Assembly: GCA_003210075.1 (NCBI GenBank) | Contig: QCNR01000001.1 | Span: 62,001-126,000 of the forward strand | Direction of reading: 5' to 3' | DNA: 64,000 nt | Source of the DNA: Pelagibacteraceae bacterium AG-426-G09 | GTDB lineage: Bacteria; Pseudomonadota; Alphaproteobacteria; Pelagibacterales; Pelagibacteraceae | In this document: positions 4,298 to 31,114 of the stretch, piece by piece | How the letters are laid out: every line of letters starts with the position of its first letter | Position numbering within the stretch: position 1 is the stretch's first letter | Made by a program: the position numbers and the translations under genes | Notes under the pieces: generated by a model | Told to the model about the DNA's origin: nothing | The model's database searches: none | The model's input: the letters and a program-made list of their open reading frames with translations, nothing else

Positions 4298-4450
4298 TTT
4301 CGCCCCCTCTGTCTATTGGCCTGAGAGTTTTGCTCCTTCGGCAAGAACTTTGGTTCTTTTTCCAGAGTTAATATGCGCGGTCCTTTTGCCTGAGAGATTC
4401 CGGGGTGGTTGCTCCTTCGGCTCTACATCGAAGTAGTCTCTTCCGCAATC
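4298..4450 (-). promoter_or_regulatory. Tandem glycine riboswitch (two aptamers) in the gcvT leader
   Basis: Minus strand: GGAAGAGACTAC...GCCGAAGGAGCAACCACCCCGGAATCTCTCAGGCAAAAGGACCG followed by TCTGGAAAAAG...GCCGAAGGAGCAAAACTCTCAGGCCAATAGACAGAGGGGG; the GCCGAAGGAGCAA...CTCTCAGGC core occurs twice. Confidence 0.95.
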
Positions 4451-4469
4451 TCAATATAGCATAAATTTA

Positions 4470-20950: not shown

Positions 20951-22246
20951 TTACTTGAGGTTTAGATAGCTGCTTGTAAGCAGTCCAATTGATTTTAAAA
21001 GATTATACTGAGCAAGAAGATAATTTCTCTCAGCATTTGTTAGAGAGATTTGTGCATTTAATAATATTGAGTTGGATTGAATTACATCTAATGTAGATCT
21101 TGACCCTGCTCCACTTAAATACTCTGCTGTAATTCCCTCGTTTGCTATTTCAGAGGCTTTAACTTGTGCTCTTACAGAATTTAAAAAACTTTCAGATGAT
21201 TGAAGATTTGCCCAGGCGCTTGTAACTTCAGTTAAGTTATTTTTAATTGCATTATCTAAAAGTAATCTTTGCCTTACTTTAATGCTTTGATTTTTATCTA
21301 TTGTCGCAAACTTTTTTCCACCAGAATAAAACGGCCAACTGACTGTTGCTTTTAAAACATCTTTTTCTCTTTCATCATAAGTAGTACTCAGATCTTCGGT
21401 ATAGGATCTTTCAAGAGATAAGCTTGCTGTTGGAGCTAAATCTGATTTTGCAATTATAATATCTTTTTCAGCCTGCTCTAACTCTAATTCAGCAATTTTA
21501 ATATCATGATTATTTGTTTTTGATAATTCAATTGCATTTTCCAAACTCGTTGGAATATTTACAATTGCCTGTATTGATTTCATTAAAGTATTTATATCTA
21601 TTCTTCCAATTACATTCTCATAATTTAATTTACTAGTAACAACTTCATTTTGAGATTGAATGTATTGAGCCTCTGCACCTGCTAATGAAGACTCTGATTG
21701 TGCAACATCAGATAATTTAACCTCTCCTCTTTCTAATCTTATTCTATCTGTTTCCAATTGAGATATTTTTAGTTCAACATTTTTTCTATTAATTTCTTCT
21801 TTTTCTTTTGCTGCGACAAGACCAGAATAAGCATCAATTGCTTTATATAAAATATCTTGTTCTTTATTCAGTAATTTAGCTCTAGCTAAATCAATTCCAA
21901 TTTTTTTCTTTTGATAATCTGCTCCTCTTCCAAAATCAATTAAAGTTTGCTCTAATTTTATTGAAGTTGAAAGTGGATCAACATCATTTATTGATGCATC
22001 TCCACCAGATTGATTTGTAAGCTTTTTTGTATCCTCTTGACTTTTTGAAGTTGTAATAGTGGCACTTGGAAGATATTCACTTCTTATAATTTTTAGATCT
22101 TGTTCAGATACAATTAAATTCTCCCTTTCGGCATTTAATTCTGCATTACTTTTATATGCTGCCTTCAAAGCCTGCAGAATTGTTTGTGCTGAAGCATTTC
22201 CAATCAATAAAAGTGATAAAAATATAACTGTTAATATGTTTCTCAT
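20951..22246 (-). CDS. tolC: TolC-family outer membrane efflux protein
   Basis: 431 aa, signal peptide, coiled-coil TolC repeats (TSIKLEQTLIDFGRGADYQKKKIGIDLARAKLLNKEQDILYKAIDAY). Confidence 0.9.
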   Translation of the reverse strand: MRNILTVIFLSLLLIGNASAQTILQALKAAYKSNAELNAERENLIVSEQDLKIIRSEYLPSATITTSKSQEDTKKLTNQSGGDASINDVDPLSTSIKLEQTLIDFGRGADYQKKKIGIDLARAKLLNKEQDILYKAIDAYSGLVAAKEKEEINRKNVELKISQLETDRIRLERGEVKLSDVAQSESSLAGAEAQYIQSQNEVVTSKLNYENVIGRIDINTLMKSIQAIVNIPTSLENAIELSKTNNHDIKIAELELEQAEKDIIIAKSDLAPTASLSLERSYTEDLSTTYDEREKDVLKATVSWPFYSGGKKFATIDKNQSIKVRQRLLLDNAIKNNLTEVTSAWANLQSSESFLNSVRAQVKASEIANEGITAEYLSGAGSRSTLDVIQSNSILLNAQISLTNAERNYLLAQYNLLKSIGLLTSSYLNLK

Positions 22247-23172
22247 TTTTTTTTATAAGTAGCTGAATTGATTTGATGTTTACTGTCTAATTTAAAAATA
22301 ATCGAGGCATATTTTGGCGCGTCTTTAAACATATTTTGAGTAATTCTTTGGTAAGTTTGCATAAAATTAATTACATCGCCTTTACTCATAATTTTAAGGT
22401 TCTTTTTCTTTTTAGAATTAATCCATAATTTCTTTTCCTGCTTTATCCTCCATTGTTGAAGGATTTTAAAATTTTTTGCTTTTAAATAAATTAAAGAATT
22501 TAATTGAGAAAATATTTTTTTATATTCTCTCTTCAGTTTTAAATTAACAAACTTTCTCCATTTCAAATTATAATCTTTAGTTCTTTCTAATGAGTTAATT
22601 GGTTTTTTAATTCTAGATATGCTTTGAGCTCTTGCACCAACACACCAACCTTCTAAAATAACAACATCTGGTTTTGAATTAACTTTATACCATTTATTTT
22701 TTGAAAATCTATCATCTACAGATTTATCAAAATTTGGAACCTTAATTTTTTTAAATTTATTTTTTTTAACTGATTTTAAAAATTTTAAAATTATTTTAGC
22801 ATCATGTGTGCCAGGAACACCTCGCGTCATTAGTAAGGGATGTATTTTTTTTGACAGATTTAGTCTTTCTTTCCTTGTTTTGTAAAAATCGTCTATTGAA
22901 ATCTTAAATACATTTAAATTAAAATATTTTTTAAGTATAATTGTAACAATCGATGTCACTGTAGTTTTGCCAGTTCCTTGTCCACCTGCTAGACCTAAAA
23001 TAAAAGTTTTTTTATTTTTAACTTTTGAGTGTATCCAAAAACAAAAAGGAATTAAAAATTTCTTTAACATCCTATCTTTGTTTTTAAATTTATTTTCTTT
23101 TGTTTCTTGCGAAAAGATAAATTTAAAACAATTAGATTTTACTTTTTTGTAGCAGTCTTCAACAGATTTCAT
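22243..23172 (-). CDS. P-loop kinase resembling plant/cyanobacterial-type D-glycerate 3-kinase
   Basis: FILGLAGGQGTGKTTVTSIVTIILKK...ISIDDFYKTRKERLNL...HPLLMTRGVPGTHDAKI...PDVVILEGWCVGAR. Confidence 0.75.
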   Translation of the reverse strand: MKSVEDCYKKVKSNCFKFIFSQETKENKFKNKDRMLKKFLIPFCFWIHSKVKNKKTFILGLAGGQGTGKTTVTSIVTIILKKYFNLNVFKISIDDFYKTRKERLNLSKKIHPLLMTRGVPGTHDAKIILKFLKSVKKNKFKKIKVPNFDKSVDDRFSKNKWYKVNSKPDVVILEGWCVGARAQSISRIKKPINSLERTKDYNLKWRKFVNLKLKREYKKIFSQLNSLIYLKAKNFKILQQWRIKQEKKLWINSKKKKNLKIMSKGDVINFMQTYQRITQNMFKDAPKYASIIFKLDSKHQINSATYKKK

Positions 23173-24112: not shown

Positions 24113-24142
24113 TTTAATATGTTTTTAAACTACCTTTGGTTT

Positions 24143-24250
24143 AAGTTATCCACAATAGCACAATATGTAGTTTCAATGTTCACGTTTTGATTCACTTTTG
24201 ATTCACTTACAGACTCAAAATACAACCTAATTGACACTAGTGGATAACTT
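24143..24250. repeat. 11-bp perfect inverted repeat (AAGTTATCCAC / GTGGATAACTT) flanking a tandem 11-bp direct repeat (TTTTGATTCAC x2)
   Basis: Arms 24143-24153 and 24240-24250; direct repeats 24185-24195 and 24196-24206; left arm plus A gives a consensus DnaA box TTATCCACA. Confidence 0.7.
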
Positions 24251-24285: not shown

Positions 24286-24681
24286 ATGAAACTAACAATA
24301 CCATACTATTTACATAAGGCTGGCGCGGGTTTTCCGTCTCCCGCAACGGACTATATTGAGGAAGATATAGATCTAAATGTTCATTTAATAAAAAATGTTC
24401 CGGCGACCTTCATTATTAGAGTTCAAGGAAAGTCAATGGTGGATGTGGGAATTAATGATGGTGATTTGCTGGTAGTTGATAAAAGTTTAACACCAAGAGA
24501 ATTTTCAACTGTTATTGCAAATGTTCATGATGAACTTGTGGTTAAAACATTGGTCCAAGAAAGAGACAAAAAATTTTTAACATCAGGTTCTAAAAACTTT
24601 GATGATCGAATTTTAATTAATGAAGAAGAAGATATTTTTATATGGGGAGTAGTTACTTATGTCATCCACTCAGTATACTAA
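24286..24681 (+). CDS. umuD: UmuD-like S24 (LexA-type) autoprotease, Pol V subunit
   Basis: FPSPATDYIEEDIDLNVHLIKNVPATFIIRVQGKSMVDVGINDGDLLVVDKS; overlaps umuC. Confidence 0.93.
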   Translation: MKLTIPYYLHKAGAGFPSPATDYIEEDIDLNVHLIKNVPATFIIRVQGKSMVDVGINDGDLLVVDKSLTPREFSTVIANVHDELVVKTLVQERDKKFLTSGSKNFDDRILINEEEDIFIWGVVTYVIHSVY

Positions 24682-25936
24682 AAAAATAGCACTAGTTGAT
24701 TGTAATTCTTTTTATGTTTCTTGTGAAAGATTATTCAATCCTAAAATAAGAAAAAAACCTGTTGTTGTTTTGTCTAATAACGATGGCTGCATAATATCAA
24801 GATCTAACGAGGCAAAAGCTTTGGGTATTAAAATGGGCGAGCCTTATTTTAAAGGAAAAGATATTATCATAAAAAATAATGTACAAGTTTTTTCATCTAA
24901 CTATTCATTATATGGGGACATCTCAAGAAGAGTTATGAGAACTCTCAAAAGATTTAATTCTGATATTGAAATTTATTCAATTGATGAAGCTTTTTTAGAT
25001 TTATCTAATTTTACTGATCAAGAAGTTGAAAAAGTAGGAAAAGAGATTAGGGCTACAGTTTTACAATGGACGGGTATACCAACTAGTATCGGAATTGCTA
25101 AAACGAAAACCTTAAGTAAAGTTGCAAACCATATCGCAAAGAAAACACAATCAGGTGTGACTAGTTTAATTGGAATTGAAAATATTGATCCAATTTTAGA
25201 GAAAGTAGAAATTAACGATGTTTGGGGAGTTGGAAAGCAATTAACTAAATTTTATCAAAAAAATGGAATTTATAATGCTAAACAACTTAAGAATAAATCT
25301 AATACGTGGATTAAAAAGAGTTCAAATGTTTTAAGTTCAAGAACTGCAATGGAGCTTCGTGGAATTCCTTGTATTGATTTAGAAACCACAACATCAAAAA
25401 GAAAAAGTTGCGTTGTATCTAGATCGTTTGGAAAAAGAGTTGAAAAATTTCAAGAACTAAGGGAAGCGGTTGCAAATTATTGTTTGAATGCGTCTGAAAA
25501 AATTAGATCAGAGTCTTTAGTTGCTAAAGCAATTACAGTTTTTGTCAGAACAAGTCCATTTCAAAGAAACTTTGGTTACTATTCAAATTCAAAAACAGTT
25601 GATTTTCCAATTGCAACAAATAATAGTATTGAAACTGTTAAAGTTGCAATGTCAATTTTAGATAGTATTTTTAAAAATGGATACCGTTATCAAAAAGCAG
25701 GCGTGATGCTTACAGGTTTATCAAATGCCGAGGGTAAGAAAAATTTATTTTCATCTGAAAAAGATGAAAAGATAAATAGTTTAATGAGATCTATTGATAA
25801 TACTAATTATAGATATGGAAGATCAACCTTAAGTCTTGCAAGTGCAGGTGTTCAAAAAAGATGGAACATGCGAAGACAATATTCTTCTAAAATAGATACT
25901 GCTGATTTTTATTTTCTGCCAACAATTAGAACTTAA
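24659..25936 (+). CDS. umuC: DNA polymerase V subunit UmuC (Y-family)
   Basis: IALVDCNSFYVSCERLFNPKIRKKPVVVLSNNDGCIISRSNEAKALGIKMGEPYF...IEIYSIDEAFLDLS. Confidence 0.97.
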   Translation: MSSTQYTKKIALVDCNSFYVSCERLFNPKIRKKPVVVLSNNDGCIISRSNEAKALGIKMGEPYFKGKDIIIKNNVQVFSSNYSLYGDISRRVMRTLKRFNSDIEIYSIDEAFLDLSNFTDQEVEKVGKEIRATVLQWTGIPTSIGIAKTKTLSKVANHIAKKTQSGVTSLIGIENIDPILEKVEINDVWGVGKQLTKFYQKNGIYNAKQLKNKSNTWIKKSSNVLSSRTAMELRGIPCIDLETTTSKRKSCVVSRSFGKRVEKFQELREAVANYCLNASEKIRSESLVAKAITVFVRTSPFQRNFGYYSNSKTVDFPIATNNSIETVKVAMSILDSIFKNGYRYQKAGVMLTGLSNAEGKKNLFSSEKDEKINSLMRSIDNTNYRYGRSTLSLASAGVQKRWNMRRQYSSKIDTADFYFLPTIRT

Positions 25937-25937
25937 T

Positions 25938-27179
25938 TTATTGACCAAAAGCAACCTGACTTGAGTAATGAACATAACAGCCTTCTTTGTTTTTATTAGT
26001 GCACTCTTTCATGGCTTTTTCGGTTAATTTATTTTTATCAAAGCCTCTTAATTTAATTAAAACATCTTTATCAATTTTATTTTTTACAATAACCACATAT
26101 TCCTGAGGGTTATGCCTGAATACACTGTAGGGTCTAGTCAAATCATTCGATTGGCCCTCTAAATCTTCACATGAATAACCTAGTCGTTCTAATTTAAGTT
26201 CTTCGCACTTTTTTTTAGCCCATATTTCATCGTAAAACATAATGGTTGGCGTATCTTTCATTTGCTGCAATGTCCCAGTTTTTCCTTTAAAGGTCTTTGC
26301 TTCTTTACTTTGATAGATGCCAAATTGCATAACTGTTAAGCCAACATCCCACATGGACTGACCTTCATAGTGTAATTTTTTTTTTCCATTAAGAAATACT
26401 TCAATCATGCCTTTATTTTTTTTATCATCAGATGAACGTTTGTCCCAATTTGCATGTATTACTAAATCAGTCCATTTACCTAAACTATCCTCTAACTCAT
26501 CAGGACTCATAATCAAATAATCAAGTGCCGCTTTTTCACAATAATTTATTTTTTGTTTAACACTTCCTCCGCAAGCATTTTCTGTATCTTCGTAAACTCC
26601 CTCTGAAGTACTAATTTTAGCCATCAAACCCTCTCTAGGAAAAATTTCTAAATGAAATGGAGGGTGATATGGCCCTTCACTTGAGTGAAATTGAAATACC
26701 GATTGTTTGCGATAAAATTTGTGTTCTTTTGGAAAATAAAAAGAGGCAGTATACCAGTAATCTTGTTTGTGCTTAAATCCTAGGCTTAATTTTTTATTAT
26801 GGCCTTGTCCTAATTCAACTCGATGATGGGGCGTTGGTCTAATACAATCTCTTTCCTTGCCATCCATATATAAAAAACCACAATCATCATAATGAAGTTC
26901 AAATCTTATAGCTGTATCACCAAATCTCACTGGTGACCCATCTGTAGAACTTACAACTTTAATTCCATATCTTGTCCAACCATAATTTTTTTTTACAGAA
27001 TGTTTAAAAGCTTCAATTTTTGTAATGGGTTTAAGTTTAATTCCTTGAATAGTGGTATCCTTTTTGTTTAAACCTAAATTATAACTTTCACTTTTATATA
27101 CCATTTTTTTAATCTCTTCTTGGTTTGCAAATACATTGTTAGTGAAAAGGATTAAAAGTAAAATTAGAATTTTTTTCAT
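25938..27179 (-). CDS. Secreted heparin-lyase-I-like / polysaccharide-lyase jellyroll protein (paralog A)
   Basis: 413 aa, signal peptide; TAIRFELHYDDCG...HHRVELGQG...YWYTASFYFP...WTDLVIHANWD...EVFLNGKK...MQFGIYQ...IMFYDEIW. Confidence 0.65.
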   Translation of the reverse strand: MKKILILLLILFTNNVFANQEEIKKMVYKSESYNLGLNKKDTTIQGIKLKPITKIEAFKHSVKKNYGWTRYGIKVVSSTDGSPVRFGDTAIRFELHYDDCGFLYMDGKERDCIRPTPHHRVELGQGHNKKLSLGFKHKQDYWYTASFYFPKEHKFYRKQSVFQFHSSEGPYHPPFHLEIFPREGLMAKISTSEGVYEDTENACGGSVKQKINYCEKAALDYLIMSPDELEDSLGKWTDLVIHANWDKRSSDDKKNKGMIEVFLNGKKKLHYEGQSMWDVGLTVMQFGIYQSKEAKTFKGKTGTLQQMKDTPTIMFYDEIWAKKKCEELKLERLGYSCEDLEGQSNDLTRPYSVFRHNPQEYVVIVKNKIDKDVLIKLRGFDKNKLTEKAMKECTNKNKEGCYVHYSSQVAFGQ

Positions 27180-27181
27180 TA

Positions 27182-28018
27182 TTATTTTGAAAACTTTTCA
27201 TCTTTTTTAGGTTTTCTAAATATAATGCTATCCAAATATACTCTTTGATCTGGTAAACTTTCCCAATCAGAATTCCAATAACCAATAGTACGATGTCTAT
27301 AAATTCCAAATTTCATATAACCACCTGTACAAGTGTCAGCTAAAGTTTTTATATTTTTAAGATCAGCTATAACTTCATTATTTTTATAAATTTTAAATCT
27401 TCCAGTTTCGTCAAGCTTCCAAAGAACATGAAATTTTAAGTGTGTCCACTTACCCTTTAAGTCTTCAATCTTTCCTATAATAACAGGCTCTGATGAATAA
27501 GCCGCTTTACTCGCCCAACTGTAATAATGTTCGCCTTTATATTTGAAATCTTGAGCCCAAAAATGACAACAACTATGACACCCTTTAGCTTTGTTATCGG
27601 TATGCATTTGACCGATTATAACTACTGCGCCTTTCTCTAAAGGTTCGTAACTTTCATCAAAGTATACTGCATATTCAAAAATATGTTCTTTATTTTTTAG
27701 TTTCATTTCGCCAAGGTGTATTTCTTGTCTACTTCTATTACCCTTGCCATCACATTGAATTTGGGTTGTTTGTGCTTTTCCTTTTCCACAACCAGCATCT
27801 TCTCTATTAACGGTGACTTGAATACTTGTTTTCCCCTCATAAACTGGGAAACCATCCGAAGCTTTTACTTCTTTTATTCTATTTACCTTTTTCTCTGACA
27901 TAGAAAGAAATTGCTTCTTATATCCCTTTATATCTTTGAAGTTTGTTTTATGGTTGTCAGAAAATGCTATTCCAGAAAATACAAACAATATTGAAATAGT
28001 GAGTAAAATTTTTTTCAT
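27182..28018 (-). CDS. Secreted heparin-lyase-I-like / polysaccharide-lyase jellyroll protein (paralog B)
   Basis: 278 aa, signal peptide; RSRQEIHLGE...EYAVYFDESYEP...WTHLKFHVLW...FKIYKNNEVI...MKFGIYRH...VYLDSIIFRK. Confidence 0.62.
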   Translation of the reverse strand: MKKILLTISILFVFSGIAFSDNHKTNFKDIKGYKKQFLSMSEKKVNRIKEVKASDGFPVYEGKTSIQVTVNREDAGCGKGKAQTTQIQCDGKGNRSRQEIHLGEMKLKNKEHIFEYAVYFDESYEPLEKGAVVIIGQMHTDNKAKGCHSCCHFWAQDFKYKGEHYYSWASKAAYSSEPVIIGKIEDLKGKWTHLKFHVLWKLDETGRFKIYKNNEVIADLKNIKTLADTCTGGYMKFGIYRHRTIGYWNSDWESLPDQRVYLDSIIFRKPKKDEKFSK

Positions 28019-28851
28019 TATTTTTGAATTAATTTTATAAGCTTTTCTTTGCTCTTTGTTCTAAATAAATTATCGTAATAAACAACTTGTGTTGGATATT
28101 TGCCGTGCACTTTATCCTTCCATCTACTAATCCAGCTATGATAGATACCAAATTTATTAAAAAATCGACCTCCATAACCTGTTCTTCCATCATAATCATT
28201 ATAAAGAACATTATTTACATACATTTTTGAAAATCCTTCTCCAGGCGCTTGTCCCATTTTTGTATGAAATATTATCGTAGTCCACTTATCTTTCATCTCA
28301 TCAATAAAAAGATTTTTGATTATTTTTCCTGAAACATCATGTCCATTTACAGGAAAATATCTAGGTTCCAAAACCCCATTTTTTACTCTCAACATCATCC
28401 TTGGATGTCTTTGTTTATTTGTATTTCCCCACTCGTATATTTGAAAAAGAGAAGTGCTTACAGGTTCAACTGATTTAAAGTCTACTGGCAAATAAATACT
28501 TACAGAAATCCATCTTTCTCCAGTGTACCTGTTGCCTGATGTGGAATATTCACTTCTAGCTCTATCTCCTCCCCCATGTCCAACAACAGCATCTCTGCCA
28601 TTATTTTTGCAATCAGAATAATCTCCGTCTTTATCTCTTCCACAATCTCTTGGTAACAATGTTATCTTCCAAGCTTTTTCACCTAAAGCTGGAGAAGTAA
28701 CAGTTTCCCTAAATTTATAAAGCTCCTTGCCATAAGCGACACTTTTTTTCCATTGTAGATTTGTAATTTCTCTTGCACTGGCTTCTTTAGAAAAATTTGT
28801 ACTTTCTATAATTAACAAACTAAAAACTATTGATACGAAAAATTTTTTCAA
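28018..28851 (-). CDS. Secreted heparin-lyase-I-like / polysaccharide-lyase jellyroll protein (paralog C)
   Basis: 277 aa, signal peptide; RARSEYSTS...WISVSIYLPVDF...WTTIIFHTKM...KMYVNNVLYND...NKFGIYHS...VYYDNLFR. Confidence 0.62.
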   Translation of the reverse strand: MKKFFVSIVFSLLIIESTNFSKEASAREITNLQWKKSVAYGKELYKFRETVTSPALGEKAWKITLLPRDCGRDKDGDYSDCKNNGRDAVVGHGGGDRARSEYSTSGNRYTGERWISVSIYLPVDFKSVEPVSTSLFQIYEWGNTNKQRHPRMMLRVKNGVLEPRYFPVNGHDVSGKIIKNLFIDEMKDKWTTIIFHTKMGQAPGEGFSKMYVNNVLYNDYDGRTGYGGRFFNKFGIYHSWISRWKDKVHGKYPTQVVYYDNLFRTKSKEKLIKLIQK

Positions 28852-30140
28852 TTTATTTGTTTACCTTTTTTGAATGGATCGTGTAGTAGCTTTTTGTGAT
28901 TATATTTATATTTTTTATTATTATAATGGAGAGAATTAACAACCAGTATTCTTGAGTTTTCTACATCAATTAAAATCATATTCCCACCATAGCCGCCCAT
29001 ACCAAATATAATTTTGTCTTTTAATCCTGGAAAATCCATATGAAATTGACCCCCGTATGATTTTGTACGATTAAATAAGGGCTCTTCTTTTTCTTTGCTT
29101 CCTTTTGGTATTCTTCTTTTATAAATTTCTTTTAAATATTTTCCAACACAATTATCATTCTGATAATCATCCATTATAGCTTTTGCAATTCTAAGATAAT
29201 CAAATCTTGTTGCCATTATGTTGGGATGTCCATTTCCCCAATTTTCATTTAAACTAGTGTAGCCATAACGAATGCTATTTTTGATCTTTATTTTATCGTT
29301 GAAAACTTTGCTATAAAATTTGTCATAATCTTCACCAATTTTAAATTTCATATAGTTTAAAATTAACTGAGTGACAAATCCATTGTAATTGTATCTTTCC
29401 TTAGATTTTTTTGTATTTTGGTTGTTAAAGTGATAGCGCATGGTTGTTGCAATATCTGTGTCTTCATATGGGCCTAATTTACTAGTACCATCTTCAAACT
29501 CGTCGATATATTTTTGATCACCAGTATTCATATTTAAAAAATTAATTAATTTTTGATTATGATAAAGAGAATCTTTTATTATAGGCCAGTCATTTACTCT
29601 AGCATCAACTCCATCAATATAACCCTCACATATTGCGTGACCTACTAAATAAGAAGTTACTGACTTACCCATTGACATTGAATAAAATTTTGTTTCATTA
29701 TTCAAAAACTCTCCCAGCATTTCTTTAGGAGAAAGTTCGTCAATTAATACTTCACCATCTTGATAATATAAATAACTAAGGATAGCTTTAGTTTTCATTT
29801 GCTTTTTTACAAATTTATCTTCAATTAAGTTGAATTTAAAATCGTAGGAACTATTTGTCGGTTTAAACTCTTTTAAATGTTGACTTCTATCTCTATATGA
29901 ATATTTCCATAAATAATAAATCAGCGTATCTCTGTTTGGGTTTGAATGATAGGCAATATTAGTAGCTGATAATGCTTTATTTTTTATTTTGATATTTAGA
30001 TTGTGAGATCCTTGCTCATTTAAATATTGATGATGTCCGTTTTCAGAAAGCCACTTATTAAAAAACCAATTTAAATTCTCAGCAAATAGATTGGTTGAAG
30101 TTAATAAGCTTAAAGCAATGATTAGTAATATTTTTTTCAT
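28848..30140 (-). CDS. Secreted serine hydrolase, beta-lactamase/esterase-like
   Basis: 430 aa, signal peptide; FYSMSMGKSVTSYLVGHAICEGYI (SxxK), GGYGGNMILIDVENSRILVVNS. Confidence 0.8.
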   Translation of the reverse strand: MKKILLIIALSLLTSTNLFAENLNWFFNKWLSENGHHQYLNEQGSHNLNIKIKNKALSATNIAYHSNPNRDTLIYYLWKYSYRDRSQHLKEFKPTNSSYDFKFNLIEDKFVKKQMKTKAILSYLYYQDGEVLIDELSPKEMLGEFLNNETKFYSMSMGKSVTSYLVGHAICEGYIDGVDARVNDWPIIKDSLYHNQKLINFLNMNTGDQKYIDEFEDGTSKLGPYEDTDIATTMRYHFNNQNTKKSKERYNYNGFVTQLILNYMKFKIGEDYDKFYSKVFNDKIKIKNSIRYGYTSLNENWGNGHPNIMATRFDYLRIAKAIMDDYQNDNCVGKYLKEIYKRRIPKGSKEKEEPLFNRTKSYGGQFHMDFPGLKDKIIFGMGGYGGNMILIDVENSRILVVNSLHYNNKKYKYNHKKLLHDPFKKGKQIN

Positions 30141-30244
30141 AGATTATGCTCATTTTTTGTTGTCCCTTTTTTTACAAGTGAGCACAACCACACTTAGTAT
30201 AAAAAAATAATATCTTTTTTTTGTTTTTTTTTAAAGATTTAATT

Positions 30245-31114
30245 CTATTTAATTTCATCAATATTCTTAATATTTGATAAAGAATCATTTAATTCACTTA
30301 TATTTTCTCTTTTTGAAATTGCTAAAACTGAAATTGCTAAAGCTAAAACTCCTATTAAAGGTATCGAGGTTACATAACTTAGATTTTCAGAAATTAAAAA
30401 TATATAAATTAAAAAGAATAAAATTGACCTAATAATCACATTTGTTTTAAATACAGCTATAATTGATAGAGAATGTTTAATTAAATTAAAGAAACTCATT
30501 TTTGATGGTCCAAAATATCTACTCCCCCTTATTGATGGAATTGTAGATCTATTTTTTTCTACTTTTGCTAAAGATCCTGAGAAACTGCTCCATGTAGCCT
30601 TTTCATTTATCATTTTTTCAACAGTTGCTTTTGGTAAACAAGTATAGTTTCCAAATTTAATTGATTGCCCTGTGAATATATAAGTAATTAATTTATGAAT
30701 ATTATAAGAAAGTGTAAAAATGAAACCTTCAGATCTTTTTATTCTTTCACCAACTATTGGTTTAGTATTATCATATTTTAAAAATTCTACGAATTTTTCA
30801 ATTTCTTCTGGTCTATCTTCTCCATCTCCGTCCATAGGTATAATGTAATCAAATTCTTGATTTTCAAAAATATATTTCAAACCTGATGCAATGCACCTTG
30901 CATGTCCCCTGTTTTCATTCATTTTTATAATTTTAATTGATTTAATTTTATCAGTACTAGAAATTTCCACTTCACTTTTATCTGTTGAAGCATCATTTAT
31001 AGCTATTATTGAAAACTCATGTTTTAGATTTGAAATAACTGAATTAATATCCTCAATTAATTTTGATGCTGATTGAAAATCATTATAAACAGGTATTAAA
31101 ATTATAATTTTCAT
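30245..31114 (-). CDS. Glycosyltransferase family 2 with C-terminal TM segments
   Basis: IILIPVYNDFQSASKLIEDI...IINDASTDKSE-like...DYIIPMDGDGEDRPEEIEKFV. Confidence 0.88.
   Translation of the reverse strand: MKIIILIPVYNDFQSASKLIEDINSVISNLKHEFSIIAINDASTDKSEVEISSTDKIKSIKIIKMNENRGHARCIASGLKYIFENQEFDYIIPMDGDGEDRPEEIEKFVEFLKYDNTKPIVGERIKRSEGFIFTLSYNIHKLITYIFTGQSIKFGNYTCLPKATVEKMINEKATWSSFSGSLAKVEKNRSTIPSIRGSRYFGPSKMSFFNLIKHSLSIIAVFKTNVIIRSILFFLIYIFLISENLSYVTSIPLIGVLALAISVLAISKRENISELNDSLSNIKNIDEIK

Follow-up and report, generated by a model that had tools for sequence, protein, structure and literature searches.

A probable accessory operon for cutting polysaccharides at a hotspot of gene exchange in a Pelagibacteraceae genome

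SAR11 bacteria are one of the most numerous groups of cells in the ocean and are modelled as consumers of small dissolved molecules. Here, we describe a four-gene operon in a 64,000-nucleotide stretch of the genome of Pelagibacteraceae bacterium AG-426-G09 (assembly GCA_003210075.1, contig QCNR01000001.1, positions 62,001 to 126,000; hereafter the window, whose numbering is used throughout) that encodes a serine hydrolase (SH) and three PF14099 polysaccharide lyases (PLa, PLb and PLc). With a probability of about 0.62, we read it as an accessory operon for cutting polysaccharides that occupies a hotspot of gene exchange between umuC and a GT2 glycosyltransferase gene, and most likely its products trim acidic, acylated polysaccharides. 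This role is drawn from the PF14099 assignment, the match of the lyases to the glucuronan lyase structure 2zzj, their conserved Gln and Tyr, the fold and invariant S156 and K159 of SH, the lyase-type genes that fill the hotspot in other species, and a leader that the operon has in common with another PF14099 lyase.

The lyases and the serine hydrolase

All three lyases score well above the curated PF14099 cut-off of 29.9 bits (79.6, 78.9 and 65.2 bits; E-values 1e-17 to 4e-22), which excludes chance as the origin of the shared motifs that a preliminary description, made from the sequence alone, had picked out. In pairwise BLAST the three resemble one another weakly (E 1e-5 to 2e-3); PLa, PLb and PLc are therefore diverged family members and not recent duplicates. 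When a profile built from 26 SAR11 relatives was run against PDB sequences, it matched the endo-beta-1,4-glucuronan lyase of Trichoderma reesei (2zzj, family PL20) with E 1.8e-14, and heparin lyase I of family PL13 (3imn/3ilr) with E 0.14-0.65. The AlphaFold model of PLb (predicted local distance difference test, pLDDT, 74; predicted template modelling score, pTM, 0.75) is a jelly roll, not an unrelated fold, and Foldseek ranks 2zzj first for it (2.7e-11), followed by PL36/PL7 alginate lyases, with heparinase I in 21st place. The preliminary description had called these proteins heparin-lyase-like jelly-roll lyases: the jelly-roll polysaccharide lyase part stands, and membership of heparin lyase I, with which they share a fold class and local similarity around the KFGIYR strand, is rejected by profile and fold rank alike.

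The match to 2zzj, itself a eukaryotic enzyme encoded by a single gene, is distant (about 15% identity). Four positions are close to invariant among 49 family members (R 48/49, E 47/49, Q 47/49, Y 49/49) and fall, via the profile alignment, on H53, E55, Q91 and Y200 of 2zzj; the residues at Q91 and Y200 are kept in all three lyases, whereas the H53 column holds Arg. The histidine of a Q-x-H motif is present in 37 members, including PLb and PLc, and is replaced by Tyr in nine, including PLa; the same alignment puts Ile93 of 2zzj at this position, so the histidine is not obligatory. Putative catalytic roles for R, Q, H and Y, and for H53, Q91 and Y200 of 2zzj, are assigned here by analogy with PL7 and PL20 enzymes. 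PL7/PL36 alginate lyases have the jelly roll of the PLb model, and an R / QxH / Y pattern of residues that may correspond to theirs is present in PLb and PLc (QxY in PLa), but a Pfam scan gave no PF08787 (Alginate_lyase2) match in the window lyases and weak matches in 3 of the 26 SAR11 relatives.

Some or all of these lyase-fold proteins could be catalytically dead and serve to bind glycans, in a lectin-like, periplasmic binding or adhesion role, as the Tyr of the PLa clade and the entry of a possible surface-type protein into the hotspot of one relative (L037) might suggest. Near-invariance of R, E, Q and Tyr in every clade, which binding alone would not need, and the Ile of the T. reesei enzyme make this improbable.

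SH carries the SxxK motif S156-M-G-K159, and S156, K159 and Y252, among others, are invariant in 39 relatives. Its model (pLDDT 86, pTM 0.89) matches PIB-1, Lsa45, NylB, EstG and class C enzymes in Foldseek (E 1e-12 to 1e-7, best 1.6e-12), which bears out the beta-lactamase-fold SxxK serine hydrolase proposed earlier: as modelled, SH is a class-C-beta-lactamase / 6-aminohexanoate-dimer-hydrolase fold protein. Lsa45 is listed as a penicillin-binding protein that has esterase activity, and from the model it is reasonable to infer that SH is an esterase or amidase. It differs from these proteins in having less than 20% identity to them and an extra N-terminal region; PF00144 is reached by 4 of the 39 relatives (best E 1.6e-4) and not by the window protein, which has no Pfam or NCBIfam family match. 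Internal-stop flags on some SH matches were not taken to mark pseudogenes because the listed open frames are full length.

The four open reading frames (ORFs; Table 1) occupy 25938-30140 on the minus strand, overlapping by 4 nucleotides (nt) at SH/PLa (TTGA) and by 1 nt at PLa/PLb (TAATG), with a 2-nt gap at PLb/PLc, as had been described. SH, earlier counted as the fourth gene, is promoter-proximal, and the lyases follow it. Each protein begins with a Lys-rich segment and has a hydrophobic stretch near its N-terminus (12-residue Kyte-Doolittle maximum mean 2.5-3.0), in agreement with the signal peptides previously assigned, and the four products are putatively sent into the periplasm or across it. 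The label Cys-rich suits PLb (6 Cys) and PLc (8) and not PLa (2); SH has 2.

Table 1. Features of the operon and its borders, with window positions
Feature	Position	Strand	Description	Key residues
umuC	24659-25936	plus	Left hotspot rim, convergent with the operon; kept across relatives	
PLc, PF14099 polysaccharide lyase	25938-27179	minus	ORF, 413 aa, ATG start; Cys-bearing C-terminal extension	R120, E122, Q163, H165, Y289
PLb, PF14099 polysaccharide lyase	27182-28018	minus	ORF, 278 aa, ATG start	R97, E99, Q137, H139, Y240
PLa, PF14099 polysaccharide lyase	28018-28851	minus	ORF, 277 aa, TTG start	R99, E101, Q137, Y237 kept; Tyr139 where most members have His
SH, serine hydrolase	28848-30140	minus	ORF, 430 aa, ATG start	
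Conserved 5' leader	30153-30196	minus	44 nt; ends 12 nt before the SH ATG	
GT2 glycosyltransferase	30245-31114	minus	Right hotspot rim; kept across relatives	

Gene turnover at the umuC-GT2 hotspot

Loci at umuC were collected from 60 Pelagibacter species drawn regardless of SH, and 56 of these were closed. The hotspot is empty in 15 of the 60 species, and in empty genomes umuC and the GT2 gene converge, their ends either overlapping or separated by a few to about 20 nt, so that insertion between them harms neither. Closed hotspots show 24 different arrangements, and lyase-type genes occur in 24 of the 60 loci. The contents include alginate-lyase-type PF05426 (15 loci), DUF1501/DUF1800 (14), PF14099 (11), phosphoenolpyruvate (PEP) carboxylase (11) and urease (7), with a few loci holding GH10-like genes or, in the extended region, a sulfatase; a dienelactone-hydrolase-type esterase also occurs. 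The hotspot is an accessory site where polysaccharide enzymes recur alongside other genes. The earlier suggestion of an accessory region is thereby sharpened to a gene-exchange hotspot; the companion suggestion, that the GT2/add/GT39 flank marks a surface-glycan region, does not hold, as GT2 and umuC are conserved rims that border empty sites too. A surface-glycan biosynthesis locus defined by GT2, add and PMT genes is rejected because the rims are kept whatever the filling. Nor are the lyases unusual in SAR11, as had been supposed: PF14099 is present in 113 of 297 Pelagibacteraceae genomes (57 of the 127 of good quality), also outside the hotspot.

Several fillings recur. A urease operon lies inside the hotspot in L120, L126, L140, L144, L145 and L151, and genes for tripartite ATP-independent periplasmic (TRAP) transport and aromatic degradation adjoin it in some species. 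A DUF1800-DUF1501 pair is found in L051, L055, L057, L086, L122 and others, in several genomes behind the same leader as SH.

The operon itself is not a fixed four-gene system, as the preliminary description had implied. Its full set and order were found elsewhere only in the near relatives L034 and L035. Partial sets lack PLb (L083), PLc (L038) or both (L037), one locus has an extra SH-like gene (L099), and in another a different SH goes with a PF14099-like gene and a PLc remnant (L103); a fixed cassette is accordingly rejected, as the genes reassort independently of one another elsewhere. The place of PLb and PLc in L037 is taken by a 683-residue exported protein with a weak SHOCT match and a repeat-like C-terminus (L037:10126-12174), possibly a surface protein. 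As judged by identity, the operon genes are shown to have moved horizontally: modules are 93-97% identical to the window versus about 65% for core flanks, as in L043 (SH 95%, PLb 94%, flanks 65%) and L105 (SH 96%, flanks 65%), and in L103 the relation is reversed (SH 72%, flanks 85%).

Of 95 SH-family copies, 46 lie at the umuC-GT2 site and the rest at different junctions between core genes. The SH tree requires at least 29 site changes versus 36-42 for shuffled labels, a rough count given its many weak forks, which suggests a site that is partly inherited but often changed. At a thioesterase-MoaD junction, the empty site (L182, L184) reads CTTAAAAAATGAAAATTAA, with the thioesterase stop overlapping the moaD start, and the filled site (L036, L045) reads CTTAAAAAATGAAAAAAATA[SH]...AAATTGAAAATTAAATTAG, the insert consisting of the ORF alone, each edge of which carries [A/T]TGAAAA; insertion at a thioesterase-c16 site is alike. 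Comparison of empty and filled sites shows that SH, as far as these sequences tell, enters with borders that lie almost exactly at its start and stop codons, a pattern that suggests recombination between short homologous stretches at Lys-rich start codons. The mapped neighbouring genes of SH sites included no recombinase gene, and a single-gene cassette mechanism without a recombinase is possible.

Phage tails often carry polysaccharide lyases, and tail-spike-type depolymerases captured by the host would be another source of such mobile genes. We consider this very improbable and reject a phage origin: neither scans of IMG/VR nor tblastn against 50,697 phage records gave relatives, the N-termini are of export type, and no phage genes were seen at the site.

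The closest described parallels to this locus are polysaccharide utilisation loci and replacement flexible genomic islands (PMC4033161, PMC11898729), which likewise co-locate exported glycan enzymes or hold different genes at the same position between strains; turnover at the convergent umuC-GT2 junction differs in being gene-sized. SAR11 island papers cover O-chain, phosphate and purine islands, with umuC and lyases unmentioned (PMC7542561, PMC7318151), and a metagenomic survey assigns Pelagibacter a glycan niche that is narrow, with sugar uptake by ATP-binding cassette (ABC) transporters of low specificity (PMC10322874). A search of the open-access literature gave no paper on PF14099 or alginate-type lyases that belong to SAR11 itself.

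Candidate roles of the operon

The simplest reading of these sequences is that exported lyases and a de-acylating serine hydrolase would act together on acidic polysaccharide. With the four proteins exported into the periplasm or beyond it, the lyases would cleave uronate-containing polysaccharides or oligosaccharides by beta-elimination, with Arg and Gln neutralising the carboxylate and Tyr, together with His in PLb and PLc, taking and returning the proton; PLa, with Tyr in place of His, may have altered chemistry or specificity. SH would strip off acyl groups that obstruct lyase action, swapping of lyase genes would fit lineages to different acidic glycans, and the leader would link expression to a signal common to some solute-uptake operons. 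Foraging fits the nutrient genes nearby and the common leader.

Several observations weigh against a polysaccharide-cutting role. The quality of the PLb model is moderate, SH usually stands alone at its other sites, which leaves the link between SH and the lyases a statistical one, and the hotspot also takes up unrelated genes (urease, PEP carboxylase, TRAP/aromatic degradation). Nor did the classical path for unsaturated uronates turn up: 2-keto-3-deoxy-6-phosphogluconate (KDPG) aldolase (PF01081) was found in 0 of 46 near-complete Pelagibacter genomes and GH88/105 in 0 of 31 relatives. Growth on the lyase products is for this reason no more than a possibility, and their classical catabolism through 2-keto-3-deoxygluconate (KDG) is rejected. 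PF07940, which we take to be a housekeeping family, occurs in 16 of the 31 relatives and gives no evidence for degradation. No oligosaccharide catabolism genes were seen among the operon genes, and these together with the Pfam-scanned flanking genes include no SusC/SusD-like pair or dedicated oligosaccharide transporter.

These negative results for KDPG aldolase and GH88/105 also keep self-directed editing a serious rival, although we regard it as unlikely: the enzymes would edit or shed the cell's own surface glycan in the periplasm, for example in phage escape, in the manner of AlgL, and their variability would track the hypervariable O-chain of SAR11. Export without a known uptake or catabolic route would suit this, as would the AlgL-type family PF05426 resident in the same hotspot, the GT2 and PMT-type glycosyltransferases beside the operon, and the high diversity of O-chain clusters in Pelagibacterales (PMC11898729). 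However, those clusters are described as mostly vertically inherited (PMC11898729) and these modules are not, the GT2 rim is present at empty hotspots too, and the leader is common to solute-binding-protein genes. If many SAR11 genomes encode active exported lyases, this would bear on the carbon diet of these cells, on the turnover of uronate-rich dissolved polysaccharide, or on self-editing of a phage-exposed surface. Natural comparisons are offered by a hotspot that is fixed in place, empty in some relatives and variously filled in others.

The leader and neighbouring features

Upstream of SH lies a conserved, undescribed pseudoknot-like leader, which may act as an RNA or as a DNA operator. 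It has a 6-bp stem (AAGTG/CACTT core), a loop GGTTGTGCT, an A-rich linker and an ACAAC that is able to pair with GTTGT of the loop as an H-type pseudoknot (98.6% pairing). The core, GGTTGTGCTNACTT-N-AAAGGGACAAC, had no chance matches in shuffled sequence. Of 249 Pelagibacter genomes, 22 have the leader. It lies at a fixed place 8-40 nt ahead of the start codon, and in the window a -10-like TATACT precedes it; it was found neither in the other genera sampled nor in viral contigs. Other copies precede the DUF1800-DUF1501 pair; in G290, a gene at the place of a PF14099 lyase (L247); a TRAP DctP-like solute-binding protein adjoining a dihydropyrimidinase-like gene (L225); and an amino-acid-type binding protein/permease (L233), the last two named by eye from their sequences together with a weak blastp match. 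It also occurs at L213-L224.

The SAM-II and SAM-V riboswitches of Pelagibacter (PMC2704228, PMC6061858) resemble the leader in being small H-type pseudoknots near start codons in the same organisms, but differ in their downstream genes. Rfam 15 covariance models, including SAM-II/SAM-V, gave no match of note even at E 10, and a known Rfam element is rejected. A CG-GC exchange occurs in the stem of 9 of 20 sequences, and the closing pair is variable. That the covarying stem doubles as an inverted repeat, with two-sided changes in two pairs only, and that the pseudoknot helix is nearly invariant, would equally suit a DNA operator or promoter element, a palindromic transcription-factor site with no structured RNA. 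The 98.6% pairing of ACAAC with the loop, though outside the palindrome, and the fixed place before start codons and, in the window, after TATACT speak against an operator, which we rate as quite possible at somewhat below even odds. Whichever its nature, the leader is an experimental handle on the signal that switches the enzymes on.

A wider proposal is put forward tentatively, as more doubtful than probable: that Pelagibacter holds a hydrolase repertoire exchangeable gene by gene, in which enzyme genes travel as single-ORF modules lacking promoters, with insertion almost exact at overlaps of stop and start codons, and in which exported glycan-active enzymes and some solute-uptake operons are controlled by a small, hitherto undescribed pseudoknot RNA that may be a riboswitch.

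Elsewhere in the window, a SAR11_0636 small RNA (RF01827, 102.5 bits) lies at 24138-24227 (minus), just upstream of a SOUL heme-binding protein gene, and a glycine riboswitch (RF00504) at 4368-4455 (minus). The gene at 22243-23172 (minus) encodes a putative kinase, weakly similar to PRK/uridine kinases (E 0.002), and is kept beside a TolC-like gene in relatives.

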